Source of the DNA: Streptomyces sp. NBC_00654
GTDB lineage: Bacteria > Actinomycetota > Actinomycetes > Streptomycetales > Streptomycetaceae
Length of the DNA stretch: 64,000 bases
Assembly: GCF_026341775.1 (NCBI RefSeq)
Contig: NZ_JAPEOB010000001.1
Coordinates: 4,464,001 to 4,528,000 of the forward strand
Direction: 5' to 3'
Of the stretch, positions 22,361 to 62,543 are shown piece by piece. The notes beneath the pieces were generated by a model that did no database searches, was not told where the DNA came from, and saw nothing but the letters and a program-made list of their open reading frames with translations. The position numbers were made by a program, and so were the translations under genes. Numbering within the stretch: position 1 is the stretch's first letter; each line of letters opens with the position of its first letter.

Positions 22361-22394
22361 GTTTGGTTACCTGCGCGCACCTTGACCGTGATGA

Positions 22395-23108: not shown

Positions 23109-23235
23109 CCCCGCCTGCCCTCCTGCGGTTGTCTCCTGGCATGGATGCCGGGCGGGGTGTCTCGGGTTGCACGTTCCGTAGCGGCATGTGGTCCGGTGGA
23201 CTTACGTCCCGCCCCGCTGAGGAAGGCCCCCGCTC

Positions 23236-24150: not shown

Positions 24151-24229
24151 ACTCGTGGTGTCGTAGGGGGTGACGGCTGCCTGTTGGCTGCGGTATCACC
24201 GGAGTCGTGCGGTATCCACAAGGGGGCGG

Positions 24230-25279: not shown

Positions 25280-25688
25280 TCAGCAGCACCACATCCCGAG
25301 TTCAACCTCAGCAGCCCGGCCGAGCAGGTGCTGCATTCCATGCGGACTGGCCTGCCCGGCCCACTCGGCGATGCTCCAGCAGTTCGTGCGCGGCAGGTCC
25401 GACAGCAGCCCCAGCACCAAGTCCCGCATCCGACGCCGGGGTCAACCCGAGCGAACCGGCCTGCTATCCGGGACATCAGGACCTCGAACGCCTCCTGCCA
25501 GCGGGCAGGGTCTACGCTGTGACTCGCGGCCACCGCATGATCTTCAGTCTTCACACACCGATGATCAACGGTGGCCGCGCCCGTCTTCACCGCCCCTCGG
25601 TCACGACGTGAGAAGACGGGGCCGCATCCCTTCCGTGTCCCGTACGGAGCACGCAGCGTTCGCCCGCCGTCTCGTACCAGGAGGACAC
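25280..25688. other. Intergenic region, no supported gene
   Basis: About 400 bases after the IS630 remnant. It probably includes the decayed element end and the promoter of the PemK-like gene. No partner antitoxin frame was found. Confidence 0.4.
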
Positions 25689-26027
25689 ATGCAACGCGGT
25701 GAAGTCTGGTGGGTCGACTTCGATGAGCGACGCCCGGTCGTTCTGCTCTCGGACGAGGAGCCATCCGGGTTTCAGGCGATGCAGGTCGTTGCGCCAGCGG
25801 GCGTCGACATCAGCGGCCTGGGCGTTGAAGTGGCCGTAGGAGCCCCGGAAGGACTGCCCTTCGAAGGCGTGCTGCGGTTCGCGTTCCCGCGTCCAGGCTT
25901 TACTCCGTGCACATGGCTGACCACCGTGGCCCGGGACGACCTGATCGAGCGGGCGGGCGTGTTGGCCTCCGTGAAGCTCAGCGAGGTTGGAGAAGCCCTC
26001 CGTGCCGCTGGACAGAGGAGGGAGTGA
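25689..26027 (+). CDS. PemK/MazF-like protein without adjacent antitoxin
   Basis: 112-residue protein starting MQRGEVWWVDFDERRPVVLL, the conserved N-terminus of PemK/MazF-fold endoribonuclease toxins. The C-terminal FTPCTWLTTVARDDLIERAG also matches the fold. The ATG at 25689 has GGAGG nine bases before it. No MazE-like frame lies upstream or overlapping. Several actinobacterial relatives of this exact type occur alone, so a non-toxin or orphan role is possible. IS remnants lie on both sides. Confidence 0.75.
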   Translation: MQRGEVWWVDFDERRPVVLLSDEEPSGFQAMQVVAPAGVDISGLGVEVAVGAPEGLPFEGVLRFAFPRPGFTPCTWLTTVARDDLIERAGVLASVKLSEVGEALRAAGQRRE

Positions 26028-26177
26028 ACCCCGATGACGGCTGCCAGGATCAGCGAGATCAAAGATGCCCGCCGTCTCGAAGGACTCGAGTAGCGGACGC
26101 CTGTGCTGCCCAGCTCGATCTCGTCGACGACTGACCGCTGCCCCCTCTCCACCGCACTTCAGCAACAAGATCACGAT

Positions 26178-26195
26178 CTACGGCTGGAGTACTAG
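26178..26195. repeat. 18-base IS end sequence shared with 62544-62561
   Basis: The reverse complement of this stretch is CTAGTACTCCAGCCGTAG, which occurs again at 62544-62561, and similarity continues inward. It looks like the terminal repeat of an IS112/IS1647-type element, with interior to the left here. Its CTAG end served as the target for the IS5-type element that starts at 26196. Confidence 0.55.
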
Positions 26196-26217
26196 GGCCC
26201 GTCTTCAAACGGACCTC

Positions 26218-27055
26218 GCCCAGAGCAGGAACGACGCCAGGCTGACCGCCGCATCGTAGGAGGCGGTGGTCTTGTCGTACCTGGTGGCGATGCCGCGGAA
26301 GTGCTTCAGTCGGTTGAAGCACCGCTCCACGGGTGTTGCGGCGGCGGTACGTCTCGCGGTCGAAGGCGGGTGGCCTGCCTCCCCGGTAGCCGCGGTTACG
26401 TCGGTGCCGCTGTTGGTCGGCCTTCTCGGGGATGGTGTGGCCGATCCCGCGTTTGCGCAGGTAGGTGCGGAATCCGCGAGAGCTGTATGCCTTGTCTGCG
26501 ATCACGTGTGTGGGGCGGCAGCGTGGGCGGCCGGGACCGAGACGTGGGACGCGGATGCGTTCCAGCAGCGGTTGCGCACAGATACCGTCATGGCGTTGAC
26601 CGGGAGTGATCAGGAGGGCCAGGGGTCTGCCGCGGCCGTCGCAGGCGAGGTGAAGTTTGGTCGTCAGACCTCCACGGGATCGGCCAAGGGCTTCATCGTC
26701 CGGTTCGTCCGGTCGACGCATCCCCCTTTTCGGCCGGTGGAGGCAGCATACTGGTGAGCTCGCACGATGGTGGAGTCGATCTGGACGGGCCAGTCGATGT
26801 CGCCGGCCGCGTCGGGTTGGGCCTGGATCTGCTGGAGGGCCTGGGTGAAGACGCCGCTCAACGCGTAGCGGCGGAAGCGGGTGTAGACCGTTTGCCACGG
26901 CCCGTAGCGGTCGGGCAGGTCACGCCACGGCAGGCTCGTGCGGATCTTGTACACCATCCCGTTGATGATCCGCCGGTCGTCCACCCTGGGCCGGCCAGTC
27001 GAGGCCGAGGGTATGAGCGGAGCGAGTAAATCCCATTCTTGATCGGTGAGTTCAT
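26218..27055 (-). pseudogene. IS5-family transposase in two overlapping frames
   Basis: The first frame reads ELTDQEWDLLAPLIPSAS to VQIDSTIVRAHQYAAS and contains the first catalytic Asp. At CGAAAAGGGGGATG (about 26728-26741, minus) the reading passes to a second frame with GGLTTKLHLACDGRGRPLAL, THVIADKAYSSRGFRTYLRK and IPEKADQ. The site could be a programmed frameshift or a second start. Near 26330 an extra C in AACACCC shifts the conserved NTVERCFNRLKHFRGIAT-like end out of frame, so this copy is probably inactive. Confidence 0.75.
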
Positions 27056-27131
27056 GTCTCTGCCTCCGACCGTGATCCTCTGGTGGATGATCTTTGGTGA
27101 CAAGGCCGAAAGGGCCCCGCACAATCGCGGT

Positions 27132-27539
27132 ATGACCAACACCGTCGATGCAGCCTGGCACGACATCCTGACCGCTTACGGCGAACCGTTCGGGCCGAAC
27201 GAGTCACCGCTTCTGGAACCATTTGCAAAGCTCGTGCGGGTAGCGCATGCCGAACCACTGCTTCGCCAGCTCTCCCCGTGGACCGGTATGTGGGAGCTGC
27301 ACTTCAGCAGGTGCACGGAGATGGACTACACCTGGGACATCCCGTACATCGGCACGCTGAGAGACGGCCGGTACTACGTCGAAGGACCGCATCGGAGCAG
27401 CCCTCGGATCTCAGAGACGGACAGCGCACAGGCCGCAGTAGCGATGGTCATCGATCGCCTGCCGCCACGTTGCGGCCCTGCCTTCATCGGCAATGCGGGA
27501 GAACTGGTCGCTTGCGAGAAGGCACGCGACAGCACATAG
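27132..27539 (+). CDS. DUF6193-family protein carried inside an IS5-type element
   Basis: 135-residue protein beginning MTNTVDAAWHDILTAYGEPF. The stretch LARVAHAEP-like RVAHAEPLLRQLSPWTGM and the end VIDRLPPRCGPAFIGNA agree with DUF6193, annotated elsewhere as 'natural product biosynthesis protein', function unknown. The frame is intact while the neighbouring transposase is damaged. It is divergent from the transposase and lies wholly between the element's terminal repeats, so it moves with the element as a passenger. Confidence 0.72.
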   Translation: MTNTVDAAWHDILTAYGEPFGPNESPLLEPFAKLVRVAHAEPLLRQLSPWTGMWELHFSRCTEMDYTWDIPYIGTLRDGRYYVEGPHRSSPRISETDSAQAAVAMVIDRLPPRCGPAFIGNAGELVACEKARDST

Positions 27540-47539: not shown

Positions 47540-48651
47540 ACGGAACGACCTGCTTCAGTTACTTGGACACTCCCATGGCAGCACCGCTGTCCATCACCGA
47601 ACTCATGCCCGGCGCCTATAACGTCATGGAGTACACCGCCGTTGCCGCCGGCGAACAGGTGCTGATCTTGACGGAGAACTCGGTGGACCCTGTGGTGGTG
47701 CAGGCACTGGCGGCAGCAGCCGCCTGTCGCAACGCCGAGGTGCACGTTCTGGCCGTTCCCCCATTCAGCGCGGGTGGCTGGGACTCCGAGCGGCCATCAC
47801 CAATGCTGTCGGCCATCCACGCCGAGGCTGATGTCGTGCTCTCCTGCACATGGTGGGGTGAGGTGCACAGCGACCGCTTGTTCTTCGACGAGATCGCCAA
47901 GCGCAAGGCCCGGTTTCTCTCACTGCACCAGACCGCGACCGCATCGGCTCTGGCCACCGGTGCCCGCTTCCCGCTGGAGCTGTATTTCGCCTTGGAATCC
48001 AAGGCGACCGCACAAATCGCCGCAGCCGGCGAGATCCGGGTAACCACCGCTGCAGGCACCGATGTGACCTTCCGTGACCTCGCAACCAGTGGCCATCACG
48101 CTCCTCTCATCGCTGGAATGTGGCGGCCCTTCCCTTACGGCGGCGTCAACTTCTACCCCAACCGCACCGACGGGCTGCTGGTTATCGAGGAGTCCACGGT
48201 CACCGGCACACCGGCCGAGCCCACCACGATCGAACTCACCAACAACGTGGTAACAGCGATCGAGGGCGCGACTGCCGCCACCGAGCTACGCCAGTATTCA
48301 CCAAGGGGCTACTATCTGCGGCACGCCCTGATCGGACTCAACCCGAAAGTGCGCTCAAGCGGTGGCACCCAGTTCGAACGGGAGAAGCACGCCGGTGCGT
48401 TCTACCTTGGCCTGGACGCCCTGACCAAGGAGGGGAAGCCTGACCGTAGCGGGCCAGGACACGCCCACTGCGACTGCCAGTTCGACAAGCCGACCATCAC
48501 CATTGACGGCACGCCCTTTATTGAAGACGGTCGCCTCCGCCTTCTCGAAGATCCCGAAATCCGCGAACTGGCCGCACGGTTCGGCCCCGCCGATGTGCTC
48601 CTTGATTCCAATCCTCGAATGGTACTACCTGCCAGATATGTACGGTATTAA
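47536..48651 (+). CDS. NicX/peptidase-M29-like metalloenzyme
   Basis: 371 residues. The fold resembles M29 aminopeptidases and NicX, the mononuclear iron 2,5-dihydroxypyridine 5,6-dioxygenase. Candidate ligands are His285 in EREKHAGAF and His311-x-Asp313 in GHAHCDCQ, which matches NicX's two His plus one Asp in HxD form. The cysteines and acidic pattern for a dizinc M29 site are less evident. ATG 47536 overlaps the MFS stop by four bases, so uptake and catalysis are coupled. Ring cleavage of an N-heteroaromatic is a fair inference; other chemistry in this fold is possible. Confidence 0.65.
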   Translation: MNGTTCFSYLDTPMAAPLSITELMPGAYNVMEYTAVAAGEQVLILTENSVDPVVVQALAAAAACRNAEVHVLAVPPFSAGGWDSERPSPMLSAIHAEADVVLSCTWWGEVHSDRLFFDEIAKRKARFLSLHQTATASALATGARFPLELYFALESKATAQIAAAGEIRVTTAAGTDVTFRDLATSGHHAPLIAGMWRPFPYGGVNFYPNRTDGLLVIEESTVTGTPAEPTTIELTNNVVTAIEGATAATELRQYSPRGYYLRHALIGLNPKVRSSGGTQFEREKHAGAFYLGLDALTKEGKPDRSGPGHAHCDCQFDKPTITIDGTPFIEDGRLRLLEDPEIRELAARFGPADVLLDSNPRMVLPARYVRY

Positions 48652-48933
48652 CTACTGACCTTGAGTTCGTCCTGTCGTAGGGGCTGGTGGTTTGACCTTG
48701 ACCCCGAATCCTGAACACGGTTTAGGCGGCTGGTGCCGGCGTAGTTGGTGTGTGCTGGAGGGTGTTCTATGCTGCACAGCCGCTTCACGGCATGGCGGCG
48801 CCGGAGGTCGGTGACACACTGGAAGCGGTTCACCAGCGCGTCTCCCCGGCGAAATACTTCGCCGCATTCCGCGGGATCTCGCGTTCCTCCTCCTACTCGC
48901 GGAACTTCTTGCGCACGGTTGTGTGACGCCGGC

Positions 48934-49815
48934 TCAGCGTGGAGTGCGATCAGGGTTGCTGGGGAGTCCGTGAAAACCTGCATCATCAAAGCAGGTTTCG
49001 CATTGGAACTCGTCGGGCGGCATCCGGGGAACGAATTCCTTGCACCCGACAGAACACCCTTCGTCGGGGAGACACATGGTGGGGAAGGTCGGCCACGCAA
49101 CCGTGAAACCGATCCGAGAATGCGCGAGATGCGGATCGTTCGTGCTGAAGGTGTGCACAAAATCTTCCGACCGCTCTCTGCGTTGTCCCTCGAGAGGCTT
49201 GCACTTGACAGCAATTGAGCGCGCTTCATGAGGGGCGATCGGATCGGGACGGGCCGTTATGATGCAGGGAGACCCGCTGCCGCCCAAGTGTGAGCCGACT
49301 GCATCTTCGATGATCAACGGTGCGGTGCCCACGTTGTGGACTCCGATTCCATGTGTGGTTTCTGTTTCCTGTCCTTCCAGTTGAGGTTGCGAGAAGTTCG
49401 CCCAGGATTGAAGGGTTTCGTCCTCCGTGTGCGAGATGAAGCCGACGAAGTCCAGCGCTTCGGGCTCGTTGTTCTTGATCTGAAGCTGCCAGGGGCCGGA
49501 GGAGGCGCTGTGGTTGACGGTCACCAGGTAGGTGTCGATGTCCTCAGCGATACGGTGGCAATCGGCGGTTGCCACGGTCGTTCCTCCACTTCCCGTGATG
49601 TCGACCGGGTCGGCACCCTCCTCCACCGCCGTGGGACCGCCCAGGCCTGCCTTGATCAAGAACGTCGGCGGTGCCCCGCCGTGCACGACGTTGGCTTCCA
49701 GATGTGCGATCGTCCGGAGGAACGTCTGCTCGGCACCCAGCAGCACGACGAACTCGATCGGAGAGCTCATCTCGTTTTCGGCCAGACGGGAGGTTCGGAA
49801 CAGTTCGAATACCAT
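48934..49815 (-). CDS. Uncharacterised two-domain beta-sandwich protein with C-terminal Cys cluster (paralog C)
   Basis: 293 residues, no signal peptide. The N-terminal domain includes SSGPWQLQIKNNEPEALDFV and DETLQSWANFS, shared with the next two upstream genes. The second domain (GIGVHNVGTAPLIIEDAVGS, RPDPIAPHEARSIAVKC, HTFSTNDPHLAHSRIGFTV) has the pattern of ASH/choice-of-anchor-D Ig-like folds. The end has six cysteines (CLPDEGCSVGCKEF and FQCETCFDD), probably a metal-binding knuckle. It is the last gene of the five-gene minus-strand set; ATG 49815 has AAGGAG. The role is unknown. Confidence 0.7.
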   Translation of the reverse strand: MVFELFRTSRLAENEMSSPIEFVVLLGAEQTFLRTIAHLEANVVHGGAPPTFLIKAGLGGPTAVEEGADPVDITGSGGTTVATADCHRIAEDIDTYLVTVNHSASSGPWQLQIKNNEPEALDFVGFISHTEDETLQSWANFSQPQLEGQETETTHGIGVHNVGTAPLIIEDAVGSHLGGSGSPCIITARPDPIAPHEARSIAVKCKPLEGQRRERSEDFVHTFSTNDPHLAHSRIGFTVAWPTFPTMCLPDEGCSVGCKEFVPRMPPDEFQCETCFDDAGFHGLPSNPDRTPR

Positions 49816-49953
49816 GATCCATTTCTCCTTTGCCGCATGAAACCGAATGACCTGTCACCTGAGGCGCCCGCCCGCCCGTTCGCGAACGGTTCATCGGGAG
49901 CTGTGAATGCAGACGCAGTTCAGAACATTGATGTCAAGCATTTTGTTCGCCTC

Positions 49954-50667
49954 TCAGGACGGGTCGGCCACGATCTGCAGGGTGGTGTGGGCGGACTTTT
50001 CGTCGTTGGTTCTGAACGTGTGCTCGAGGTTCCTGCGGCTGAGGATCTCCCCACAACTGAACGCCAGGTGATCGACGCCATGCGGGGCGATCTCCGCAGG
50101 ACGGTGGACGAGGACGACGGGGGAGTCCTGCCCGCCGACCGGTGTTCCCGGACTGTCGTCGATCGTGAGAGTTCCGGTCCCCTGGTTCCGCACGACGACG
50201 AAGCCGACCGGGCTTGCGCCGGTGATCGACAGCTGGTCCTCCAGTGCCATCCAGGGCTGGAACGTGTCGTCCTTGATGTTCGAGTTGACCCAGGTGAAAC
50301 GCAACGTACGGTCGGCCTTGTTCTTGATGCGCAGTTGCCAGCTGGTTCTCGACTCCGTGTGGTTGACGACCGTCAGGAGATAGATGTCATCGTGCAGGGG
50401 CTGACAGCTCGCCGTCCCTCCCCCCTTCGGGCCGGGAATGCCGACCTCCGTGCCGTCCGCGTCAACCGTGGTGATGAGGCCTTGGCCCAGCTTGATCCCG
50501 AAGGTCGGGGCGGCACCGTTCAGCGGCGTATTGTCGGTCCACAGCGCGATGACCCGAAGGAACATCGGCACGGGTTCGATCGGTACCTCGAAATCGACCA
50601 GCGGGCCGGTCTGGCCGGGCGCCAGCGTCAGCGGCTCGTCCGAGGGGAAGATCTGGATCACGCTCAT
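49954..50667 (-). CDS. Uncharacterised two-domain beta-sandwich protein (paralog B)
   Basis: 237 residues, no signal peptide. It shares the N-terminal domain of its neighbours (IEPVPMFLRVIALWTDNTPL, then TSWQLRIKNKADRTLRF, then DDTFQPWMALED) and the Ig-like second domain (VVVRNQGTGTLTIDDSPGTP, HRPAEIAPHGVDHLAFSCG, HTFRTNDEKSAHTTLQIV). It ends at ADPS, without the cysteine tail of paralogs A and C. The ATG at 50667 has only a weak ribosome site, 82 bases after the previous stop. The function is unknown. Confidence 0.7.
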   Translation of the reverse strand: MSVIQIFPSDEPLTLAPGQTGPLVDFEVPIEPVPMFLRVIALWTDNTPLNGAAPTFGIKLGQGLITTVDADGTEVGIPGPKGGGTASCQPLHDDIYLLTVVNHTESRTSWQLRIKNKADRTLRFTWVNSNIKDDTFQPWMALEDQLSITGASPVGFVVVRNQGTGTLTIDDSPGTPVGGQDSPVVLVHRPAEIAPHGVDHLAFSCGEILSRRNLEHTFRTNDEKSAHTTLQIVADPS

Positions 50668-50748
50668 CGCATATCCCCGATTCTTACGCCGGTGTGGAGA
50701 GTCTGTGCACGGCATTGCGGCAGCGGCTCGTTCCTGGAGATCGCCGCA

Positions 50749-51651
50749 CTAGACGTTCCGGTGGTCGGGCGGGACGTCGAAGTGCTCTGCCCCTCGATGC
50801 CCGCAGGTCTCGCATGGACCGCCCACCTCAAGCGGTGGCGGCACGTATGCCGGGCACCGCCCGCAGGCTCGGCAGAAGGCCGGTTCCTCGTCCGGCGAGT
50901 CGTGCCGGGCGGAACGAGGCAGGACCTCGAACAACAGGGTCGCGTGTGCCCGGTTCATGTCGTTGGTGTCGAAGGTATGGCTGAAGCGATCCGCGAAGGA
51001 GACCTGCCCGCACTCGACCACCAGCTCGTCCGTGTCGTGCGGGGCGATCGACGCGGGCCGCCGCCGCAGCACCACCGGCGATCGGTCCGAACCCAGCCGG
51101 GTGCCCGGCGGATCGTGGAGGATCAACGGCGCCGGGCCCAAGTTCCGTACCGTGATCGCGGTCTCGGAGTCTTCACCGTGCAGCGTCGGCAGACCGTCCT
51201 GGGACGTGGTGGCCCGATCCAGCGCCATCCAGGGCTGCAAGGTCTCTTCCTCGCGGTACGACGCGACACAGGCGAACCGCAAGGTCTCCGCGTCGTTGTT
51301 GGTGATGCGCAGGTGCCAGGGTCCGGGGTTCTCCTCGAGCCCGGACAGGGTGATGAGGTAGCTGTCTGCGGGCAGCCGCCTTACCTCGGCCAGGGCCGCG
51401 ACGTCACCCTCGGTCTGACAGACCTCGGCCTTGCCCGTCCTGGCGTCCACCGTGGTGAGCAGGCCGTCACGGCCGGACTTGAGCTCGAAGGTCGGGTCGT
51501 GCCCGACGAGCGGACGGTTGTCGCGCCAGAGAGCGATCACGCGGATGAACATCTCGGTTGCCTCGATGGGCACGCCGAACGGAAGGGGTGGCCCCGTCGC
51601 GTCCCCGCGGAGTTCGAGCGGCTCTGTCTCCGGCAAGAGTTGGAACACCAT
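50749..51651 (-). CDS. Uncharacterised two-domain beta-sandwich protein with C-terminal Cys cluster (paralog A)
   Basis: 300 residues, no signal peptide. Domain 1 has IEATEMFIRVIALWRDNRPL, GPWHLRITNNDAETLRF and EETLQPWMALD; domain 2 has AITVRNLGPAPLILHDPPGT, ASIAPHDTDELVVECG and HTFDTNDMNRAHATLLFEV, again ASH/anchor-D-like. The tail CRACGRCPAYVPPP and GPCETCGHRGAEH holds five Cys and two His, a likely zinc ribbon. The ATG at 51651 has a strong GGAGG, 25 bases after the stop of the 1251-residue protein gene. Confidence 0.72.
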   Translation of the reverse strand: MVFQLLPETEPLELRGDATGPPLPFGVPIEATEMFIRVIALWRDNRPLVGHDPTFELKSGRDGLLTTVDARTGKAEVCQTEGDVAALAEVRRLPADSYLITLSGLEENPGPWHLRITNNDAETLRFACVASYREEETLQPWMALDRATTSQDGLPTLHGEDSETAITVRNLGPAPLILHDPPGTRLGSDRSPVVLRRRPASIAPHDTDELVVECGQVSFADRFSHTFDTNDMNRAHATLLFEVLPRSARHDSPDEEPAFCRACGRCPAYVPPPLEVGGPCETCGHRGAEHFDVPPDHRNV

Positions 51652-51676
51652 CGGTCTTTCCTCCGGGCATGGGTGG

Positions 51677-54600
51677 TCATGTGAGTTCGGCGATGTCGGC
51701 GTAGACGGGGCCGGTAGGCTCGCCCGCCGCTCCGGGAGCGGACTCGGTCTCGGTGACGGCGATACGCATCGGCCGTTCGTCGTTGGGCCGCAGGTCGAGT
51801 ACGAGGTTGTCCCCGAGCCGCCCGGTCGCCTGGGCCAGGGGGGTCCAGCCCGATGGCCCGATCAGGCCGTCCCGGGCCGCGCGCGGGTCACCGGCGAAGG
51901 CCTGCAGCTCGGCACGGACCGTGGTGAAGGGAGGCCCGGTCGGCCCCGGACCGCTGAGCACGACATCAGCCCGGTGGGCGGTGCGCGTGATGACGAGATC
52001 GCGCGGCGGGAGGAGCCGGACCGGATCGATCGCCAGCGGCGGGGACAGCCGCTGGTCGGGGTCCGCGGTGTTCTCCTGGTAGCGGGCCAGCGCCAGTCGG
52101 ACGAACGGACGGTACGAGGCCGCGGCAAGGGGGGAGAGGTCGAGGTCGGCGAACCAGCAGTCGGCACCCTCCTCGTAATGCGAACTGGCGTCCAGGCGGC
52201 TGGCCATCGCCACGACCGGGGCGCCCCCTAGCTCCGCCAGGTTCACCGTCCCGGAGACGTCCGCGCGGATGTGGGTGTCATCGAGGACGGCGGACGGTGT
52301 CGTGGTGGCCTGCAGCGGGTCACGGCCGGCCAGGCTGAGATGACGCCGTTGCCGGTCGGTGGGCGAGGCCGACGACCGCGGCCAGGCCAGGACGGCGAGC
52401 GCCTCGTCGGCGCCGGTGACGAACCATGGCCGTTCGAGCATGACACGCAGGCCGCCTCCGCTGCGCGACGACCGGATCACTGCTCCGCCGCCTTCGACGG
52501 ACCGGGTCCACCGGACGCTCGGCACCACGTGACGGACCTCCGGGGCCGGGGGCCGGGTGGTGCTCGCCACATCGGTGGCATCGAGCTTCCCGGTGACCGC
52601 GCAGGCCAGCGGATCCTGCGCGACGACCCGGCCGAAGTACTCACCGAAGCGCGAGACGGCGGTGACCGTGTAGCTGACCTTCCGCCGCCGCGCGTCGCCG
52701 AACTCGTGGCGCATCGGCGGGAACGCACCGTCGGGTGCCTCCAACAGCGGCGGCTTGTGCGCGATCTCGAACGAGCCGACGTCCGCCACGACCCGCCTCG
52801 ATGTCGGCCGGGCGGGGGCGACGTCGACGACATCGTCCCATTCGGCCCGGACGTCGATCCGTCCGGTGCTGCGTACGTCGATGTGGAACGCCGACGTCTT
52901 CAGCTCGGCGTCCGTGTCGCCCATGTGCCGGACGGCGCCGAACCGGCCGGTGGGGTGTGCCAGGGGGCGTTGCACCGCATGGACCAGGGTGATGGTGCGC
53001 GACGGGCTCACCAGCGGGTTGCGGCCGTACTCCGCCTCGATGTTGACCGGGTTGCTCGCATCCTGTGTGGCACCCGCCCAATGCGGGATGCCCAGGTCCG
53101 GGACGGCCAGCATGGAGGGACACGAGGGGAGGTCGACGGTGACCTGCTCGGCCGGGCCCAGCGAGACCGTGAACGTGCGAGGGCCGAGACCGGGACTGCG
53201 CCTGATGGTGCACCCGTCGGCAGCCGGCTCGACCCGCAGCGCGATGGGCTCCATGTCCGGCCAGGTCCCCCGCCACAGGCTCTGGGAGTCCTTCGAGTCG
53301 AACCCGTCGGCGGTTCCCGGATAGCCGGTGTCCGGATCGGTCGGCCGCGGCCGGTTCCGGAGGTTGACCCAGATCGTGCCGCGGTCGGCGAGCCAGGCCG
53401 GTCTCGGGAACGGGGGGTTCGCTGGAACGACCACATAGGTGCCGGAGCCGTCCGGGGCGCTCTCAAGATGTGCCCCGGTGATGTCGGCGACGTCCTTGTC
53501 CGCGCGGGTCGCGATCTCGAACTGTTTGCGGACCTCGTCCATTGCGGCATCCGGTCCGAACGCGGTGCTGAACGCCCCTTCGTACTGGAGGGCCAGCTCG
53601 AACGAGCTCTTCGGGGGGAACAGGTAACGGAGCTCGGCGGCAGGGTAGCCGTGCGCCGCGGCGTAGGCGGCCGCATCGGTGCCGCGCTCGGTCCGTACCA
53701 CCATGCGGTGCGGCCCGGCGCCGTCGACGTAGGCCGCGGTCGGCAACAGCTCCGGTGCCGGATTCGGATCGAAGCGCCGATGGACGATCTTCTCCGTAGC
53801 GTCCTCCGAGCCGGGCTGGTCGCGCCGCAGCCCGCCGCCGGCGAGGTCGGCCAGCCGCGCCCGGAACCGGTAGGTCGAGCCGAACTTCAGTCGGGGCAGC
53901 GACCCGTCCACGGCCTCGGCTGCCGCGGCGAACGGCGGCGACGGCTCGGCTGCGGCCGGATCCACCACCCGGTCGGGCCGGGGCACCACCTGGTTCCAGC
54001 CGTCCCAGCGGGCCACGGCCTCATGGACGTGGAGCGCGGCGCTCGCACCGGAGCCGCCTGTCGTCGCCGAGCCGACGGGGACGAAGCCCTCGTCGAACAG
54101 GCCCGGCAGACCATGCTCCGGGGGGAGCGCAACCCCGCCGACGGTGTAGCGGACCTGGCGCCGGCACAGCGAGTGCCACCTTCCGGCGGCGAAGACGTCG
54201 AGCCGGTATCCCGCGAGCAGGTTCTCCGCGGTCAGCGGAGAGCTCAGGAGTTTCTGCGGTGTGTCCCGGTCGGTGGCTCGCTGCAGCCGCGCGAAGTGCT
54301 CCTCGCGGCGGTTGCGTTCGATCAGGGCGAAGCCGGTGGAGCGCAGCGCGGGCAGACCGGCGGCGTCCGCCGCCTCCGGCGGTACCTGTCCGCGGTCCGA
54401 CTGGGCGACGCTGACCATCCGCAGCGCCGCGCTGTCGATATCGAACGGCATGACCGCGTACGGGGAGCTCGTGGGTGTGCCCGCCAGGGTGACCTTGGCC
54501 AGGGGCAGCATCCCTTGGGGGCGTGCGGTACCCGCCGCAGGCGGCATCAGCGGGACGAACCGGGAACCGGCCAGCGAGTAGGCGGTCGTCGGCCGCAGAT

Positions 54601-55432
54601 CGTCCTGGTGGGCGTTGGTCCAGCCGGCCGGGGCACCGGGGTCGGAAACGGGCCACAGGGGTTCCAGGCGGAGGTGCGCGGGGCCGTCCGCGGAGGACAG
54701 CTCGGCCACCGGCACCGCGAAGTCGATCACCAGGCCCACCGTGCGCAGCAGGAGGGGGTGACCGGCCAGCCGGGCGACGACGTCATGAAAGTCCAGGTCC
54801 TGGGCCTCCTCCTCGGCGGGCGTCGCGAGGTCGGGGTTCTCCCGACGGTAGAACAGGTAGGCCCGCACCAGCGGTGACGTGTCGGCCTCGGCGGTGTCGC
54901 GGTCGGAGAGCGTCGCCGCGGCCTGCCAGTCTCGCGCGATCTCCTGCAACGCCGCCTCCCGCCGGGCGCGCTGGCGATGGTCGCGGGCGCCGGTCCTGGC
55001 GAGGGCCCACGTGGTCCGGGTGTACGCCTGCTTGATCTCCGTACCGGCCTCGTCCGCCGGGAAGTCCCGGACCTGACGGGCCCGGTAGCTGGTCGGTTGG
55101 TAGGGCCGGACGGGCATGGAGGCGGGGAACATCGTTCGCCAGGCGGACAGCTGCTGCTCCGGCGTGCACAGCGGCCGACCGTCCTCGGAGGCGGGCCGGA
55201 TCCGGGTGAGAGTGAGCCGCCGGTCGCCCCGGTACGCGGCGAAGTCCATGTCCTCCAGGCGGGAGGGCCAGGCCTGCATACCGAACTCTCCGACGGTCAG
55301 GGGAGTCCCGGGTGGGGCCAGCAGCCGCGGGGTGAGCAGCACCGAGAACAGGGCCCGTCGTGCTCCGGTGGTCTCCGCGCGGCCACCGGGTATGACGGTC
55401 CAGACGAACTGGCGGGTGAGGGCGAGCGCCAT
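51677..55432 (-). CDS. Uncharacterised 1251-residue protein
   Basis: No signal peptide, no transmembrane helix, no nucleotide-binding or catalytic motif that I recognise. The N-terminal third has helical stretches (RARREAALQEIARDWQAAAT) and the rest is beta-rich, with fibronectin-III-like pieces (STYRFRARLADLAGGGLR, KVSYTVTAVSRFGEYFGR) and RPFVRLALARYQEN near the end. A large scaffold or shell component is conceivable. ATG 55432 lies two bases after the stop of the 896-residue protein gene, so the two are translationally coupled and probably made in similar amounts. Confidence 0.72.
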   Translation of the reverse strand: MALALTRQFVWTVIPGGRAETTGARRALFSVLLTPRLLAPPGTPLTVGEFGMQAWPSRLEDMDFAAYRGDRRLTLTRIRPASEDGRPLCTPEQQLSAWRTMFPASMPVRPYQPTSYRARQVRDFPADEAGTEIKQAYTRTTWALARTGARDHRQRARREAALQEIARDWQAAATLSDRDTAEADTSPLVRAYLFYRRENPDLATPAEEEAQDLDFHDVVARLAGHPLLLRTVGLVIDFAVPVAELSSADGPAHLRLEPLWPVSDPGAPAGWTNAHQDDLRPTTAYSLAGSRFVPLMPPAAGTARPQGMLPLAKVTLAGTPTSSPYAVMPFDIDSAALRMVSVAQSDRGQVPPEAADAAGLPALRSTGFALIERNRREEHFARLQRATDRDTPQKLLSSPLTAENLLAGYRLDVFAAGRWHSLCRRQVRYTVGGVALPPEHGLPGLFDEGFVPVGSATTGGSGASAALHVHEAVARWDGWNQVVPRPDRVVDPAAAEPSPPFAAAAEAVDGSLPRLKFGSTYRFRARLADLAGGGLRRDQPGSEDATEKIVHRRFDPNPAPELLPTAAYVDGAGPHRMVVRTERGTDAAAYAAAHGYPAAELRYLFPPKSSFELALQYEGAFSTAFGPDAAMDEVRKQFEIATRADKDVADITGAHLESAPDGSGTYVVVPANPPFPRPAWLADRGTIWVNLRNRPRPTDPDTGYPGTADGFDSKDSQSLWRGTWPDMEPIALRVEPAADGCTIRRSPGLGPRTFTVSLGPAEQVTVDLPSCPSMLAVPDLGIPHWAGATQDASNPVNIEAEYGRNPLVSPSRTITLVHAVQRPLAHPTGRFGAVRHMGDTDAELKTSAFHIDVRSTGRIDVRAEWDDVVDVAPARPTSRRVVADVGSFEIAHKPPLLEAPDGAFPPMRHEFGDARRRKVSYTVTAVSRFGEYFGRVVAQDPLACAVTGKLDATDVASTTRPPAPEVRHVVPSVRWTRSVEGGGAVIRSSRSGGGLRVMLERPWFVTGADEALAVLAWPRSSASPTDRQRRHLSLAGRDPLQATTTPSAVLDDTHIRADVSGTVNLAELGGAPVVAMASRLDASSHYEEGADCWFADLDLSPLAAASYRPFVRLALARYQENTADPDQRLSPPLAIDPVRLLPPRDLVITRTAHRADVVLSGPGPTGPPFTTVRAELQAFAGDPRAARDGLIGPSGWTPLAQATGRLGDNLVLDLRPNDERPMRIAVTETESAPGAAGEPTGPVYADIAELT

Positions 55433-55434
55433 GA

Positions 55435-58125
55435 TCACTCCTGCGTGAATGCCTTGCAGTAGGTGTGCCAGGGGAAGGACGATCCGACCGGACCCCATGC
55501 GTGCTGCACCGAGGACGGGTTCGCGGCCGTGAGCGGGGCCCTGTCGTGGGGGGCCACGGCCTGGTCCGAACCGGTGAAGGTCTTCTCGCAGGTGATCTCG
55601 ACGGAGGTGGACCAGAAGGTGAGGTCCACCGCAATGACGAGCCGGGCCTTGCCGCGCAGGATGTTCGGTTCGACGAAGGTCAGGCTGATCGTGAGCTCGA
55701 CGGAGACCGAGACCAGCCCGAGGACACGGACGGATCCGCCGATGCGCAAGTAGCCCGCGATCTCGATGGTGCTGCCGCGTTTGGTGAACACGACGCCGCC
55801 GAAGACGTGCACCTCGCCGCGGGCGACTCCGAAGTCCATCGCCACGGCGGCGCCGAACTCGATGCCGCCGACGAATCGTTCCAGACCGGAATCGTTCCCG
55901 CCGGCACGGATGCCCAGCTCCAGGTAGCCGCCGCCACCGAAACCCATCACGGTGACCAGGAACGGACGGTCCCGGGTCCCGAAGGAGAAGTCGACCGTCA
56001 CCGGGTCGTCGCCGAGCGACAGGGTGATGCCGGCCTGCAGCAGCAGGTTCTGCACGACGAACACTCCCAGCTGCGGCGGTGGCGAGACGGCGAGCGCGTA
56101 GCGGACGCGCACCTCGCGGCTGCCCACCTCGACGGTGGGTGCCTTGCCGCCGATGCCCGGGAGGTAGCTGCTGAGCTGCTGTACGAACTTCAGCTGCCGG
56201 CCGAGCCGCGCCGAGCTGACCACCAGCGTGGTCTCCGGGAGTTCGCCCGGTTCGGCGTGGAACTTCAGGGCGGTGAACCCGAGCTTGACCAGGTACTGGC
56301 TCTCCGCGGGGGAGGGGATGCCGATCGCGAAGTTGGTGACCGTGCCGTCGATCGTGCTCCGTGGCCGGCCGTCGACCAGCTCCGTCCGTATGCCGAGTGT
56401 GACCCTGCAGTCGGCCAGGGGCTGGAAGGGGCCCTTCTCGCTGGTCAGGGACTCGGTCCAGTGCAGGGTGGCCTGCGGTGTGGGGGTGCGCGACCAGGTG
56501 ATCGTCGGGCGCCCGGTGACCTGGCCGATGATGTCCACCAGCGGGACGACGCCGAGCAGTTTGGCGCCGCGGTCGAACAACTTCGCCGGGTCGGTGGGCA
56601 GGTTCGCCACCGTGGGACCCAGCTCGCGATGAATCCGGTCCACGGCCATCGACGGTGCGGCCGCGACGGCGGCCCGGGCGGCGGCGAAGTTCACGGGGAC
56701 CTTGTCAGGGAGTTCGAGCAGGACATCCGGCGGTCTCCCGGACCCTGCGGCGTCCGCCACCTCCCGCGCCAGCGTCGCGCGGATGGTCTGGTGCTGCCCC
56801 AGCAGCTGCTGCACCGCCGGGAGGGTCACCTCCAGCCCGGCGATCCGGGGGTGGAACGCGGTACCGCTCCCGATCCTGGTGGCTGCGAGGGTGAGTGACC
56901 GGACGTGCTGCTCGGAGCGTTCGACCGCCTCCACGACCTTGTCCGCCCGTCGGCGCACCACCAGTGGAACGGCCCGGTCGACGAGGGCCGTCGGGGGGCC
57001 GGGGGCGGCTTCGAGATCCTCCCGCGGCCCGCCTGCGTACAGGGTGTTGAGGAATCCGACATCGGTGCCCTTCTCGGCGAAGACCAGAGGCAGGTGCAGG
57101 GGAACGACGTCGCCGGCGGAGGATGCGTGGACCGTGAACATCACTGGGAGTCCGTCCCGCGTCAGCCAGTGGGCGCGGGCGCCGACCGCCGGCCGGTCGA
57201 GCGGGGTCACCAGCACGGGCTCGATGGCCACCCGGTGGAACGGAAACTCGCGTTCGTGCCGTGCCTCGATGCCGTAATCGAGGACCGGCTGCGTCACGAC
57301 CAGGGTGACGGTGCGGTGCAGTCCCGCCACTCCAGTGACCGGGTCGAACTTCCGCTCGGTCACCTCCACGATGGAGGCCTCGTTCCCGAAGGGAAACAGG
57401 ACTCCCCGCTGCAGCAGCCGGATGTAGGCGTCGCGCCCCATCACGACACGGTGAGTCCATTCCAGATCCGGGTAGGCCACCGAGCCGGAGAACCACGCGC
57501 CGCACGAGGAAAGGATGAGCGAGCCGACGGAGACCGGAGTACCGGGGTGGTCGCAACCTCGGGCGGCGATCTTCTTGACACCCTCGCCGAGCGGGGTGCT
57601 GTCGGCGAACGGTGTCTCCAACGGCAGGCTGGCGAAGGGGAAGACGGCCGAGTACGTGGGCGAGGACGGTGCCAGGATCCGGGTGTGCCATATCGCGGTG
57701 ACGCCGTCGTCACTGGTGGCGGGGCGGTGGGGGTGCTGACAGCGGGCCTCGTCCTCGACGGCGAGAAGAAGCCGCCACGGCAGTTCGAGCGTGCTGGCCT
57801 TGCCCTGCTCCCGTGGCGTGCCGACCAGCTTCAGCTTGTTCGCCGCGTCGAGCACACCCTCGACGGTCAGGGGGATGACGTAACCGGGCGGCACGGTGAA
57901 ATGCAGGCTGGTCGGCCCTGCCGGCCGCCCCTGCACCGAGAGCGAGCCCACCACGCTTTCCGCGACGTGCTGCGGCTCCAGGTCGACGATCAGGCGGCCC
58001 TCGCCCGTGGCGACCCATTCCCTGACCCCGGCGGCACCGGTGCGTTCCTGCAAGCCCGTCGAGCGGACCGTCAGCGACACGAGATCGCTCGGACGCAGGA
58101 CCGCATATCGCTCCGTGGCACTCAT
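55435..58125 (-). CDS. Uncharacterised 896-residue protein with Gly/beta-rich C-terminus
   Basis: First gene of the minus-strand set. Residues 1-550 are mixed alpha/beta without recognisable motifs. From about 690 the sequence alternates hydrophobic and polar residues with many glycines (VMGFGGGGYLELGIRAGG, GEVHVFGGVVFTKRGSTIEI, LVSVSVELTISLTFVEP), which predicts a long antiparallel beta-sheet or barrel-like structure. No signal peptide is present, so a classical outer-membrane barrel is unlikely. ATG 58125 has CGAGG upstream; the frame extends left without coding character. The function is unknown. Confidence 0.72.
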   Translation of the reverse strand: MSATERYAVLRPSDLVSLTVRSTGLQERTGAAGVREWVATGEGRLIVDLEPQHVAESVVGSLSVQGRPAGPTSLHFTVPPGYVIPLTVEGVLDAANKLKLVGTPREQGKASTLELPWRLLLAVEDEARCQHPHRPATSDDGVTAIWHTRILAPSSPTYSAVFPFASLPLETPFADSTPLGEGVKKIAARGCDHPGTPVSVGSLILSSCGAWFSGSVAYPDLEWTHRVVMGRDAYIRLLQRGVLFPFGNEASIVEVTERKFDPVTGVAGLHRTVTLVVTQPVLDYGIEARHEREFPFHRVAIEPVLVTPLDRPAVGARAHWLTRDGLPVMFTVHASSAGDVVPLHLPLVFAEKGTDVGFLNTLYAGGPREDLEAAPGPPTALVDRAVPLVVRRRADKVVEAVERSEQHVRSLTLAATRIGSGTAFHPRIAGLEVTLPAVQQLLGQHQTIRATLAREVADAAGSGRPPDVLLELPDKVPVNFAAARAAVAAAPSMAVDRIHRELGPTVANLPTDPAKLFDRGAKLLGVVPLVDIIGQVTGRPTITWSRTPTPQATLHWTESLTSEKGPFQPLADCRVTLGIRTELVDGRPRSTIDGTVTNFAIGIPSPAESQYLVKLGFTALKFHAEPGELPETTLVVSSARLGRQLKFVQQLSSYLPGIGGKAPTVEVGSREVRVRYALAVSPPPQLGVFVVQNLLLQAGITLSLGDDPVTVDFSFGTRDRPFLVTVMGFGGGGYLELGIRAGGNDSGLERFVGGIEFGAAVAMDFGVARGEVHVFGGVVFTKRGSTIEIAGYLRIGGSVRVLGLVSVSVELTISLTFVEPNILRGKARLVIAVDLTFWSTSVEITCEKTFTGSDQAVAPHDRAPLTAANPSSVQHAWGPVGSSFPWHTYCKAFTQE

Positions 58126-58301
58126 GCCAGACCTCGAATGTTGTTCGGGTCGCCCGGTCCGATCCTGAGAAACGTTCCGCACGCGGGATGTTCAGGAGGG
58201 AATCTTGTCGTTCCCCTGCCACACGTGGTCGGGGTTCCCCCTGCCACAGGGGGTCGCCGACTCCGGGCGCCGTTCTCGTCCCCCATTGTCCGCCGCTCCG
58301 T

Positions 58302-58339
58302 AACGCCCCGCACCCCGGTACGGGGCGGGGCGGGGCGTT
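58302..58339. terminator. GC-rich hairpin upstream of the 896-residue protein gene
   Basis: AACGCCCCG pairs with CGGGGCGTT and an inner CCCCG/CGGGG pair closes a three-base loop. Its position about 180 bases before the gene suggests a leader structure, or a terminator for transcription entering from the protease side. Confidence 0.4.
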
Positions 58340-58582
58340 GCCGGTGACCTGACGGGCAGGGCCGTGTGCAGGTCCGCCCCCGACACCGTGCGGAGGTGAT
58401 CATCCGCGTGCTCGGACACGGGGCGGGAGTGCCGGACCGGGTGACCGGCGGCTGCCGCGTTGTTCGGGCCGCGCCCCGAAGCGGGACGGGACAGGTGGAG
58501 GCGAGCGACGACATCCGGAATCCGGGGTCCGGCGGAGCGCCCGCCATGTCGAAGAACAGGCCCGCCCTCGCCGTTCGTCCAC

Positions 58583-58628
58583 GTTGTTCTTCACACCGCA
58601 CACCGCCCGGGGTTGTTCTTCACACCGC
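58583..58628. repeat. Pair of 17-base direct repeats, possible regulatory sites
   Basis: GTTGTTCTTCACACCGC occurs at 58583-58599 and at 58612-58628, a 29-base period. Two identical sites on nearly the same helix face are typical of paired activator binding in divergent promoters. Confidence 0.55.
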
Positions 58629-59119
58629 CAGGGACGGTTGTCCCGCGGTCATCGCAGCGCTCATCCCTCATCCGCCTGATGTTCGAGGTTCCCGCGCGCC
58701 CAGCCTGGACGAGGACGGCCGGGTCGACCGGCTTCGGTACTCCGGCATTTCGTGCGGCTCCGCTTCGACCGACAGTGTGCGGATGAGGCCTCCTACTGGG
58801 TGCCGTTCCGGCAGGCTGAGCCAACCATGCGGGGGTAAAATCTGCATTGCAGGGCCGTCGTACGGGAATTGCGCGCACGCCTACGCTTATGCGCCCCGGC
58901 CGGCTTCCCGCGATTTCCCGGGACGGCTGGAGCGCCTCGCTTCGCGCCACAGGCGATGCCTCTCGGAAGAGACCACGTATTGGCCGCAGAGGGAACGTTG
59001 GTCATCGGGCCGGACGAGCCTCCGCGAACCAGAGCCGAACCGCCGTCGACGGCACATTTCCGACGACAACAGGAAGTCCACGACGGAAGCAGAATGCAGG
59101 GCAGTAGAAGGGGACCAAG

Positions 59120-60307
59120 ATGATGAATGACCAACGCGGCTGGGGCGAGAAGGGGTTTTCCACTCCTCCGGATACGCCTCCTGAAGGCTCGACCGGTGAA
59201 CAGCCCGAGGGCTTCATGCTTCCCCCACGGGAACCGTCGGCGGAGAGCCGCGCGGAACTTGAGCGGGCAGCCGGCCTGACGGATTTCCGAGTCGGCACGG
59301 CGAGAGAAGAAGTCGAGGCGGCGTTGTTCGCCGACGCGGCGAACAAGGTCCGTGACGAGCGGCCGCGCCCTCCGGATCAGTTCCTGGGTGCGGGTAATGT
59401 ACAAGGTGTCGGCTGGGGGCCGGCCGGGCCGGGCTCCACCGCCCTCCCCGGAACCGAGGTGCTACGGGTTTACGTGGCGGAGCCGCAGGAGACGAGCGCC
59501 GTACGGGACGTCCTGGTCGACGCTCTTGGCGTCCGGACCGCTGGGGACGTTCCCCTTGAGGTGGTGCACAGCGGCCTCATCAATCTGCAGAACCTTACGC
59601 ACCGGCACCGAAAGGCCGCCGGAGGCCTCTCTGTCGGGCATGAAACGGGAGTCCAGGGCACCTTGGGTTTCCTCGCGCGGGGACGTAGCGCGCCTGACGC
59701 GAACAAGCTCTTCCTGGTGAGCGCCAACCACGTGATCGCGAAGCTGAATGCCGCCGAATACAATTCCTGCATCGTGCAGCCTGCCCCGGCTGACGGTGGA
59801 CGCTGTTCCACCGACCGGATCGCTTTGCTGGACAAGGTCCACCCCCTTGATCTGACGTTTCTCACGACCAACTACGCCGACTGCGCCCGGGCTTGGTGCT
59901 ACCCCAGCGAAGTGGTGCAGGAGCAGCTCCAGGTGCACCAAGTTCCGGGGACCGGCCCGCAGTACTACGGGATCGGACATGTGCCTCAATGGGCCACGCC
60001 GAACATGTGGGTCGGTAAGACCGGCTGCCTCACTCAGACCACCTACGGAAGGGTTCTGGAGACCAACTGGGGAGGGCTCATCGGCGTCCCGAACAGCCTT
60101 ACGAAGATTCCGTTCGCGGGGCAGATATCCATCATGAACCCCGGATACACCTTCTCCCTACCCGGCGACTCCGGTGCCGTCGCCTGGTCGTACGACGCAA
60201 ACGCCAACCCTGTGGGATTGGTCATCGGAGGCGATCCATACACCGGAGTCTCAGTCGCCAGCCACGCCAGCTGGGTTCTCGACTACCTGGATCTGGTTCT
60301 TGTCTGA
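59120..60307 (+). CDS. Trypsin-like serine protease without signal peptide
   Basis: 395 residues. The catalytic triad can be read: His in LVSANHVIAKLN, Asp in HPLDLTFLTT and Ser in LPGDSGAVAWSY (GDSG motif). The N-terminal 90 residues are Pro/Glu-rich and disordered-looking (STPPDTPPEGSTGEQPEGFM), with no signal sequence, so it is probably intracellular. Cys residues in CIVQPAPADGGRC and DCARAWC may pair. ATG 59120 has AAGGGGACC upstream; a second ATG follows directly. It is divergent from the five uncharacterised genes across a 1-kb regulatory gap, and context suggests it acts with them. Confidence 0.82.
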   Translation: MMNDQRGWGEKGFSTPPDTPPEGSTGEQPEGFMLPPREPSAESRAELERAAGLTDFRVGTAREEVEAALFADAANKVRDERPRPPDQFLGAGNVQGVGWGPAGPGSTALPGTEVLRVYVAEPQETSAVRDVLVDALGVRTAGDVPLEVVHSGLINLQNLTHRHRKAAGGLSVGHETGVQGTLGFLARGRSAPDANKLFLVSANHVIAKLNAAEYNSCIVQPAPADGGRCSTDRIALLDKVHPLDLTFLTTNYADCARAWCYPSEVVQEQLQVHQVPGTGPQYYGIGHVPQWATPNMWVGKTGCLTQTTYGRVLETNWGGLIGVPNSLTKIPFAGQISIMNPGYTFSLPGDSGAVAWSYDANANPVGLVIGGDPYTGVSVASHASWVLDYLDLVLV

Positions 60308-60433
60308 CCCGGGCCGCCGCGCGTACGGCACCTGGCTCCTCCGGGCTTTCGAAGGACTCACGGAGATTCGCCGAGTTCATGCTCGACACGTACCGCTTCG
60401 CGGACGCGGCGCATGACCTGGACCGGTCCTGCT

Positions 60434-61584
60434 ACTGATCTTTTCATAAGTTCGGTGTGTGCTGTGGATGGTCAGGCCCGTATGGGCGAGGAATGGCCAT
60501 GGCAGTCGGGGTTGGCGTTGATGCGGTGGATGCCTTGCTCGGTGGCGTCGGCGACATCGGCGTGGTGGTCGCCGGCGAGGTTGGCGAGTTCACGCTTCTT
60601 GAGGGAGGACCACAGCAGTTCCGCCGGGTTCGGCTCGGGAGCGTAGGCGGGCAATCGTTCCAGGGTGAGCCAGTCCTGTTCGGCGACCAGGCCCGCATCG
60701 CCCGGCTTCAGTGGGCGGACAGGCCGTCCCGGACCAGGACAACTCGCTCGCCGCGGTAGAACACCTTCATCTGCTCCAGGACCTCGATGAGCCCGGGGGT
60801 GTCGTAGCTGCCGGGCTTGAGGTGGCAGCACAGGCGCGCCCCGCGACGGGGGTCGGCGGAGTGGTAACCCAAGGCCCCGGCCATCGATGCGCGCTTCCGG
60901 TTCAGGCGGTGCCGCAGGAGCGGAGTCCGCCCTCGGGGCGAGTAGGCGCGGCGGATCCGAGGGAGCAGGGAGACGCCTGATTCGTCGAGGAAGACGATCC
61001 AGGCACGTGTGTTCACGGCCCCTTTTTGATACGCGGCCACTCGTGCGCGATCCAACGGGCGATCTCCGACTCGTCCCGCTCGACCGCCCGCCGCTCGGGC
61101 CGTTGCAAGCTCCATCCAGCCGGCCGGTCAGCAGTCGCCACACCGACGCCGTCGACAACACCACCCCCGTAGCCCGGGTGACGACCGCGCCGACTCGTTC
61201 CAGGGTCCACAGGTCGGCCTCGAAACCATGAGCCTGGGCACCTTGCTCCAATGCGGCCCGGACCGCCTCGACCTGGGTGTGCCCAGCTTGGGTGGGCGCC
61301 CGGTGGCTGCCCGTCGCCGCAGGGCCGAAGCACCACCTTGCTCCCACACCCGCCGCCAACGCCGCACACTCTCGGTACACACCCCCACCGCCCTCGCGAT
61401 CTCCGCATTCAGGACGCCATCCTCGAACAACTCGACTGCCCGAATACGACGCGCCTACGCCAACTGAGGCCGCGACAAGGGAGGAAGACAGGAGCCGGCG
61501 ACCGAAGGGGAGGGTTGATGAGTCGCTCCGACAGCCTCCCGCCCATACCGCCACCACACCCACCGAACTTACGAAAAGCTCAGT
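60434..61584. mobile_element. IS630-family element with terminal inverted repeats
   Basis: Ends at 60434-60457 and 61561-61584 form 24-base imperfect inverted repeats around the core AAGTTCGGTG (at most two or three differences). The element is 1.15 kb and holds one decayed minus-strand transposase. TA precedes the left end, as expected for IS630; the right flank no longer shows it. Confidence 0.7.
60472..61470 (-). pseudogene. IS630-family transposase, multiply frameshifted
   Basis: In order from the right: MFEDGVLNAEIARAVGVCTE (HTH), then VWRLLTGRLDG, then AWIVFLDESGVSLLPRIRRA and SMAGALGYHSADPRR, then RVVLVRDGLSAH, then LPAYAPEPNPAELLWSSLKK. All DDE regions are visible but are spread over at least three frames. 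Confidence 0.78.
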
Positions 61585-61631
61585 GGGCCGTGTATCGAAA
61601 GTGGATCTTGAGCGATGAATGATCTCGGTTC

Positions 61632-61740
61632 ATGGGGCGGGGAGATCTCACGGACGAGCAGTGGGCGGCGCTGGAGCCGTTGTTGCCGAAGGGCACGAAG
61701 GCGGGGCGGCCGCCCGTCTGGCCTCGGCGCCAGTTGATGT
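61632..61740 (+). pseudogene. IS5-type transposase N-terminal fragment
   Basis: MGRGDLTDEQWAALEPLLPK then GTKAGRPPVWPRRQLMS is the exact N-terminus type also fused to the GNAT gene at 15568. It ends abruptly where a different, oppositely oriented transposase begins. Confidence 0.7.
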
Positions 61741-61743
61741 CGC

Positions 61744-62486
61744 TCATGTGCTCGCGGCGGCCGTGGTGGCGGGCGAGGGCCCGCCAGCTTCTTGAGGTGC
61801 CCGATGCCGTGCTCGACGCGAATACGGCGTGAGGAGTGGGCCTTGCACTGGCGTTCGTGCAGCTCCTCGTACCACTCGGGCGGGGTTCTTCTTGAACTTG
61901 CGGTGCGGCGGTGTCATCACGCGTCCGCCCGTCGCCGAGTCCCTGATAGCCGGCATCGGCCAGGATCTCCACGTCAGGCCCGTCTGCCAGTAGCTCGACC
62001 AGGCCCAACTTCCGGGCATGCGTGATGTCCGCGCAGCTGGCGGGCTCGGCAGGGCTGCAGAACAGCAGGCGCCCCTCGGCGTCCGTGACGACCATGGACT
62101 TGACGGTGTTCTGCTTGTTCTTGCCGGAGATGAACTTCTCCCGGTCCTTGCGCCCGGTGGCGGGGCGTCGGACCTGGATCCCGGTGCCGTCAAGGATCCC
62201 GGTTGGGCCGTTCGCTCCGAGGTGTTCGATGACCTCGGCGAGCGAGCGCAGTCGGATATCGGGGGTGACGGTGCAGCCCCGCTGGGCCAGCAGGAGGCCA
62301 GTACATCGTGGGTTGCGCCGTGGTGGAGGTGGACGAGGGTCGCCAACAGGCGGTCAGGACGGCCTGGCGTCGCCCATGCCACAACGGGCCGGCCTCGGCG
62401 ACGAGTTCAGCAATCACGTCGGGCGTCAGGCCCGTGATCCGCCGGCATCGGATGATCGCTGCACGTGCCCGGTTCCCCCACCGCAC
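61744..62486 (-). pseudogene. IS5-family transposase remnant (second group)
   Basis: Pieces in several frames: RRITGLTPDVIAELVAEAGP, LLATLVHLHHGATHDVLAS, then MVVTDAEGRLLFCSPAEPAS with CADITHARKLGLVELLADGP and ILADAGYQGLGDG, then RALARHHGRREHMSD. At least four frameshifts. The 3' end is truncated at about 61744 by the fragment on the left. Confidence 0.75.
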
Positions 62487-62543
62487 AGACCATGATCAAC
62501 GATCAAGGACCCGACGTGCCGCCGACGACTGTGCACGAGCTCG

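Follow-up and report, generated by a model that had tools for sequence, protein, structure and literature searches.

The window analysed here is a stretch of 64,000 nucleotides from Streptomyces sp. NBC_00654, a genome whose closest relatives are Streptomyces. At 48934..60307 it carries five minus-strand genes and a divergent gene for a trypsin-like protease, and all six were confirmed in the list of open reading frames (ORFs). We call the two large genes at the front of this operon B and A (896 and 1251 residues), and the three small paralogous genes behind them p300, p253 and p293. The original prediction treated the six genes as one unit. We find instead that the conserved core is two genes, B and A, with the protease present at just one of 79 loci that carry A (L021).

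Scanning the contigs of GTDB genomes with a profile of A gave 278 stretches with relatives, from which the best 79 loci were kept. These span at least 11 phyla: Actinomycetota (35 loci), Pseudomonadota (18), Chloroflexota (7), Bacteroidota (4), Acidobacteriota and Thermodesulfobacteriota (3 each), Chlorobiota and Armatimonadota (2 each), and Verrucomicrobiota, Bacillota and Balneolota (1 each), with two loci unassigned. B lies directly upstream of A in 69 of the 72 loci that could be tested, seven having been dropped for want of 2.7 kb upstream of A, and the median spacing between the matched ends of B and A is 10.5 nt. The coupling of these two genes, originally read from one operon, is far wider than that operon could reveal. 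Of the three exceptions, L034 is due to an N-terminal extension on its A, and L055 and L081 to a single gene of about 695 residues between B and A.

Within Streptomyces, A is present in 27 of 295 genomes, at 28 loci, and B was recognised with it at 27 of these (the window, 18 of 19 and 8 of 8). At L143, where B was not recognised, an antisense ORF had been called in its place; at L145, B is partial. The pair is visibly disturbed in two cases: B and A of genome G167 are separated by a transposase gene, IS110-like by eye (L141:6768-7970), and in G212 (L180) each gene is split over several frames, as in a decayed pair or a poor assembly. Over 38 loci, pairs with more similar A proteins also have more similar B proteins (pairwise identities, r 0.83). 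In a FastTree phylogeny of 42 A proteins, built from rows of an existing alignment and, given its long branches, a guide only, the phyla are intermixed, and Actinomycetota requires at least four changes on well-supported branches. Because of these changes, either horizontal spread of A or an old paralogy would fit the tree. The patchy occurrence in Streptomyces and the mixing of phyla also speak for a conflict system, one of the original suggestions, in which B-A would sense invasion and a leaderless protease and lytic enzymes would kill the cell; the pair in L081 has a caspase-like neighbour (by eye) that points the same way. We nevertheless consider this improbable, since none of the six window proteins matches a PADLOC model at E 1 and A and B are the only genes common to the loci.

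The original statement that these proteins belong to no recognised family held up in every library consulted. None of the six reaches the cut-off in Pfam or NCBIfam, PADLOC is silent as above, a search of PDB sequences with the A and B profiles gave no match up to E 5, and among the six only the protease matches in PHROGs, leaving A, B and the small paralogs without a match. With A, protein searches, which score only the roughly 8000 candidates sharing most words with the query, returned 74 relatives, and with B 38; nearly all of those that their source names are called 'hypothetical protein'. A and B have no detectable homology to each other (probability 0.3%), and at E 0.5 Pfam found no RHS/TcB/TcC or TcA domain in any of the 42 family members scanned (20 B, 22 A). 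Two leads were rejected: the UniRef label 'Baseplate protein J-like domain' on the A relative P0017 received no support from Pfam, and a phage origin of A found no phage record and a single viral contig with a match. Literature searches turned up nothing named that resembles the pair, which has no searchable name, and we do not claim its absence from print. The original prediction was right, then, about novelty, judged against these libraries, and about linkage, and wrong about the genes that make up the unit.

The coordinates of the operon are collected in Table 1. The longest ORF for B would start at GTG 58182 and encode 915 residues. For p253, the true start is probably 50667, giving 237 residues, because it fits the relatives better. 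Sequences of Shine-Dalgarno type precede B, A, p300 and p293. The genes are separated by 2 (B-A), 25 (A-p300), 33 (p300-p253; 81 if the later start is used) and 138 bases (p253-p293), and the G+C content, 0.70 in B and 0.73 in A, goes down to 0.60 in p293. A scan of 48500-60500 for sigma-70-like promoters found none, which carries little weight for Streptomyces. Transposase-like ORFs and fragments, seen by eye at 22382-27161 and 60472-62495, flank the region on both sides and so suggest a mobile neighbourhood.

Table 1. Features of the operon and the divergent protease gene, in window positions.
Feature	Position	Strand	Description
B	55435..58125	-	896-aa core protein; ATG start at 58125; CGAGGT ahead of start
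A	51677..55432	-	1251-aa core protein; AGGAG ahead of start
p300	50749..51651	-	300-aa small paralog; C-terminal Cys/His tail; GGAGG ahead of start
p253	49954..50715	-	small paralog without Cys tail; 253 aa as ORF
p293	48934..49815	-	293-aa small paralog; Cys-rich C-terminal tail; AAAGGAG ahead of start
Divergent intergenic region, B to protease	58126..59119	.	994 bp
Trypsin-like serine protease, leaderless (predicted triad His204, Asp254, Ser351)	59120..60307	+	395 aa; AAGGGG ahead of start; optional accessory of the pair

The predicted model of A is confident (pLDDT 90) and consists of an N-terminal part of about 550 residues followed by fibronectin-III-like domains. B is predicted to have a beta-rich N-terminal part and a C-terminal meander of amphipathic strands at about 657-855, which resemble outer-membrane beta-barrels both in the model and in fold matches over 657-855 (pTM 0.68). 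The listed fold matches fall on this part of B and on A 554-1144, and the N-terminal parts of both proteins are barely covered. The predicted structures gave no ground for dividing the pair into known functions unrelated to each other. The lack of signal peptides, as originally described, was also recovered: by a hydropathy test over the first 45 residues (threshold 2.2; this is not SignalP, and starts were set by our own script), none of the six window proteins has a signal-like N-terminus. No A protein out of 94 passed the threshold; five of the 92 B proteins did, and so did three of four secreted controls. Four of the five passing B proteins look like ordinary sequence, and the one in L048 alone may have a signal.

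Some relatives of B carry DUF346 repeats at the N-terminus, which the window B does not have; other N-terminal extensions gave two weak matches only (Lactonase, 0.05; Fungal_lectin, 0.07) and no PDB match. Five giant relatives, P0113-P0117, reach 2174-2920 residues; in P0113-P0116 an insert of roughly 440-900 residues separates the stretches matching the two halves of B, and P0117 matches the C-terminal part only. Because P0113, P0114 and P0116 have a Tat-like start by eye, some B relatives may be exported folded. P0112 (1502 aa), a single metagenome protein and possibly a chimera, has the N-terminal half of B, then a phospholipase-D-like stretch at 1361-1434, and no match to the barrel-like half.

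A range of enzymes and other proteins is encoded within about six genes of the pair. Those confirmed by Pfam include wall-acting proteins (Amidase_2 in L021; M23 in L029, L081 and L158; M15 with PG_binding, and GH25, in L060), with PG_binding also near the pair in L037 and L158. They further include proteases (S8 in L030, L054 and L177; astacin in L054; M10 in L060) and others (Patatin in L178, Phosphoesterase in L177, PatG in L139, Collar in L053, ATP-grasp in L023 and L054). The Collar match is one of two phage-tail-collar proteins downstream of a Geobacter pair (L053:12689-13753). We compared a near set of 82 genes (80 of 122 near genes picked by eye, plus the S8 of L030 and the astacin of L054 added by hand) with a random draw of 82 farther genes, limited to two from any one locus. 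Among the 25 families listed for each set, the near set held M23 (3), Amidase_2 (2), Patatin (2), Trypsin_2 (2) and PG_binding_1 (2), and the far set no peptidase or peptidoglycan hydrolase. The 42 near genes that were dropped comprise eight of the p300 family, one of an ATP-grasp cluster and its one partner gene, the rest being ordinary or short. With a near set picked by eye and both lists limited to 25 families, the comparison is suggestive only.

The window protease is one such enzyme. Its GDSG motif and its divergent position across about 1 kb were both verified, and His204, Asp254 and Ser351 are invariant in six of six aligned homologues; as these residues fit the trypsin pattern, we take them to be the predicted catalytic triad. 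It matches the PHROGs 'protease' family phrog_20754 (E 2e-25), with a region of about 150 residues preceding the matched part, and no Pfam trypsin model; it probably resembles the NAL1-like proteases. Protease matches at E 1e-3 occur in 28 of 295 Streptomyces genomes and are strong only in the window, G308 (60%), G033 (47%) and G167 (34%). In G033 a homologue and A are 3.6 kb apart, and at L021, a locus found through A, one lies 83 bases behind the last gene of a related operon. In G167, protease and A are both present about 430 kb apart, and the homologue in G308 has no A match in its genome. A regulator-like and a ferritin-like gene (by eye) precede the G308 protease; the pair in L021 likewise has both kinds of gene ahead of it. 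Among 295 other genomes drawn from the phylum, 13 had a protease match, the best at 39% (G385), near LGFP-type repeats (by eye) and large unassigned proteins of 1100, 600 and 285 residues (L171:7983-16530); neither A nor B was recognised on this 17.8-kb contig. The protease, linked in L021 and G033 yet without A in G308 and far off in G167, is thus a recurrent but optional partner of the pair. Separate occurrence of the genes, which the original prediction had named as telling against it, was found in part for the protease, as in G308, and was not found for B and A with respect to each other.

An assembled particle had also been suggested, in which A and B, with the small paralogs, would form a large structure that is intracellular or released by lysis, and the protease would mature B or A. 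The two large leaderless proteins and a leaderless protease with triad residues are in keeping with this, as are the collar-type proteins beside the Geobacter pair. It was not borne out here and seems unlikely to us: A, B and the paralogs have no PHROGs match, A has no phage record and a single viral contig, and few loci have the protease.

The three small proteins are paralogs: p253 shares 44% identity with p300, and p293 34%. In Streptomyces, three of 295 genomes have strong matches, in each case directly after A, and four more have marginal matches only (E 5e-4 to 8e-4); elsewhere, the p300 family has three copies in a Nocardia and one in other Streptomyces and in Kitasatospora. The paralogs are a lineage-specific addition to the pair. 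The linkage from which the original prediction argued is confirmed for B and A, extends to the paralogs and holds only in part for the protease. Five p300-like proteins precede an ATP-grasp-type gene (L021:13868-14905, L022:13778-14716, L023:13838-14866, L030:13819-14916 and L141:11958-12956) and share a Lys/Glu-rich C-terminal stretch and the motif HFIxPELRPDxSxxxL; they may be precursors of graspetides, with the Ig-like part as a large leader. Beside the window p300, no ATP-grasp maturase is present between 48934 and 60307.

Such genes raise the idea that B-A is a platform for peptide maturation, the substrates being small Ig-like proteins or short peptides encoded nearby. ATP-grasp genes stand behind p300-like genes in L021 and L023, with more loci by BLAST cluster, and three of the 82 near neighbours match RimK or GRASP_SAV_5884, the third probably being that of L054, upstream of B. 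The tails and the shared motif described above are in its favour, as are PatG_C/PatG_D beside the pair in L139 and similar genes, by eye, in L179. The PatG-type genes (L139:13150-15914, Pfam-confirmed, and L179:3509-5523) are accompanied by subtilase-like genes (by eye), and in L179 a 108-residue Cys-rich ORF lies between the two. We think a maturation platform very unlikely, for these enzymes occur at a minority of actinomycete loci and the window operon has no adjacent enzyme of this kind.

We tentatively propose, with a confidence well short of even, that B-A is a two-protein, lipid-contacting carrier or delivery module that positions enzymes at a target envelope. The two giant proteins, the lipid-type surface of B, its sometimes lectin-type propeller and the variable enzymes nearby together look like a carrier whose tools can be exchanged. 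The observations behind it are the coupling of the two genes, their lack of signal-like N-termini, the hydrolases beside some pairs and the amphipathic, barrel-like C-terminus of B in the model. A would serve as the scaffold, its own N-terminal part followed by the fibronectin-III-like array, and would bind B. B would provide a binding end, in some lineages an N-terminal DUF346 propeller, and, at its C-terminus, an amphipathic sheet or barrel that touches lipid or inserts into it. Each lineage would add its own hydrolase: here the trypsin-like protease, elsewhere peptidoglycan hydrolases, subtilases, zincins, patatins or a phospholipase-C-type phosphoesterase. The complex would carry these enzymes as cargo, or position them, at the target envelope after lysis or by another route, with the small Ig-like paralogs as adaptors in this lineage. 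The binding, the lipid contact, the cargo, the route and the target are our inference. It is tempting to go further and picture a phage-independent translocation device in at least 11 phyla, made of two proteins without export signals and freed by the lytic enzymes of its own locus, whose B barrel inserts into a foreign envelope while A presents the locus-specific enzyme; we regard this bolder version as quite unlikely.

Several observations weigh against a delivery module. The C-terminal half of B is the less certain part of its model, and the sole Foldseek match reaching E 0.001 is LptD (E 2e-4, probability 0.60); an amphipathic sheet of this kind can also be a soluble lipid cavity. The plainest rival is a lipid carrier with processing enzymes as neighbours. 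B-A would carry a hydrophobic ligand (lipid, pigment or polymer) in the cavity formed by the B sheet, and lipases, patatins and proteases would process ligand or carrier. The matches of B to LptD and to microsomal triglyceride transfer protein (E 2e-3), its amphipathic strands, the patatin and esterase-like neighbours and the lack of a signal-like N-terminus all agree with this. We hold it to be possible though doubtful, given that the fold matches are weak and that it leaves the peptidoglycan hydrolases and lectin-type extensions unexplained.

The neighbourhoods themselves also count against enzyme delivery by the pair. Eight neighbouring proteases, six S1-type (L067, L070, L087, L088, L148 and L149) and two S8-type (L152 and L173), have signal-like starts, so some neighbours of the pair are exported normally; the two Trypsin_2 matches of the near set probably belong among them. 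None of 21 neighbouring hydrolases passes the hydropathy threshold, the highest being the L054 astacin (2.02 against 2.2), in a sample chosen because its members looked leaderless, some of them named by eye. The near set is biased toward enzyme delivery because ordinary genes were dropped from it by eye, and many B-A loci have ordinary neighbours. Only A and B are conserved, and the neighbour clusters offer no energy source, channel or holin shared across the loci. A complex, its secretion and its delivery are at this stage proposals.

The pair can be compared with several established systems. Contractile injection systems with toxin islands (PMC8213781, PMC10066040) have a conserved core ringed by variable enzymes and occur in Streptomyces and environmental bacteria. 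B-A is likewise a conserved core amid variable enzymes; unlike them it has only two core genes, and no sheath, tube, baseplate or AAA gene was noticed among the 25 families listed for the 82 neighbours or by eye. Tc toxin complexes are built of very large, beta-rich, enzyme-carrying proteins. The B-A giants are similarly large, whereas the members scanned have no RHS or Tc domain. Outer-membrane beta-barrels such as CymA, OmpG, autotransporter barrels, PapC and LptD differ from B, which has no signal-like start, places a part of about 500 residues before its barrel-like end and occurs in a Cytobacillus and in Streptomyces, both without an outer membrane. The DUF346 repeats of some B relatives, though not of the window B, recall the PLL/DUF346 seven-bladed propeller lectins (PMC6943638, PMC12203525). 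The window protease, finally, has the His, Asp and GDSG of trypsin-like peptidases, and is unlike them in lacking a Pfam trypsin match and a signal-like start.

A giant gene pair kept together across at least 11 phyla, for which the libraries searched have no family model, is an unassigned matter of bacterial biology beyond a local curiosity of one Streptomyces genome. If it is true that the pair carries enzymes, B-A would represent a new delivery route; if it binds lipid, it would represent a new class of carrier.

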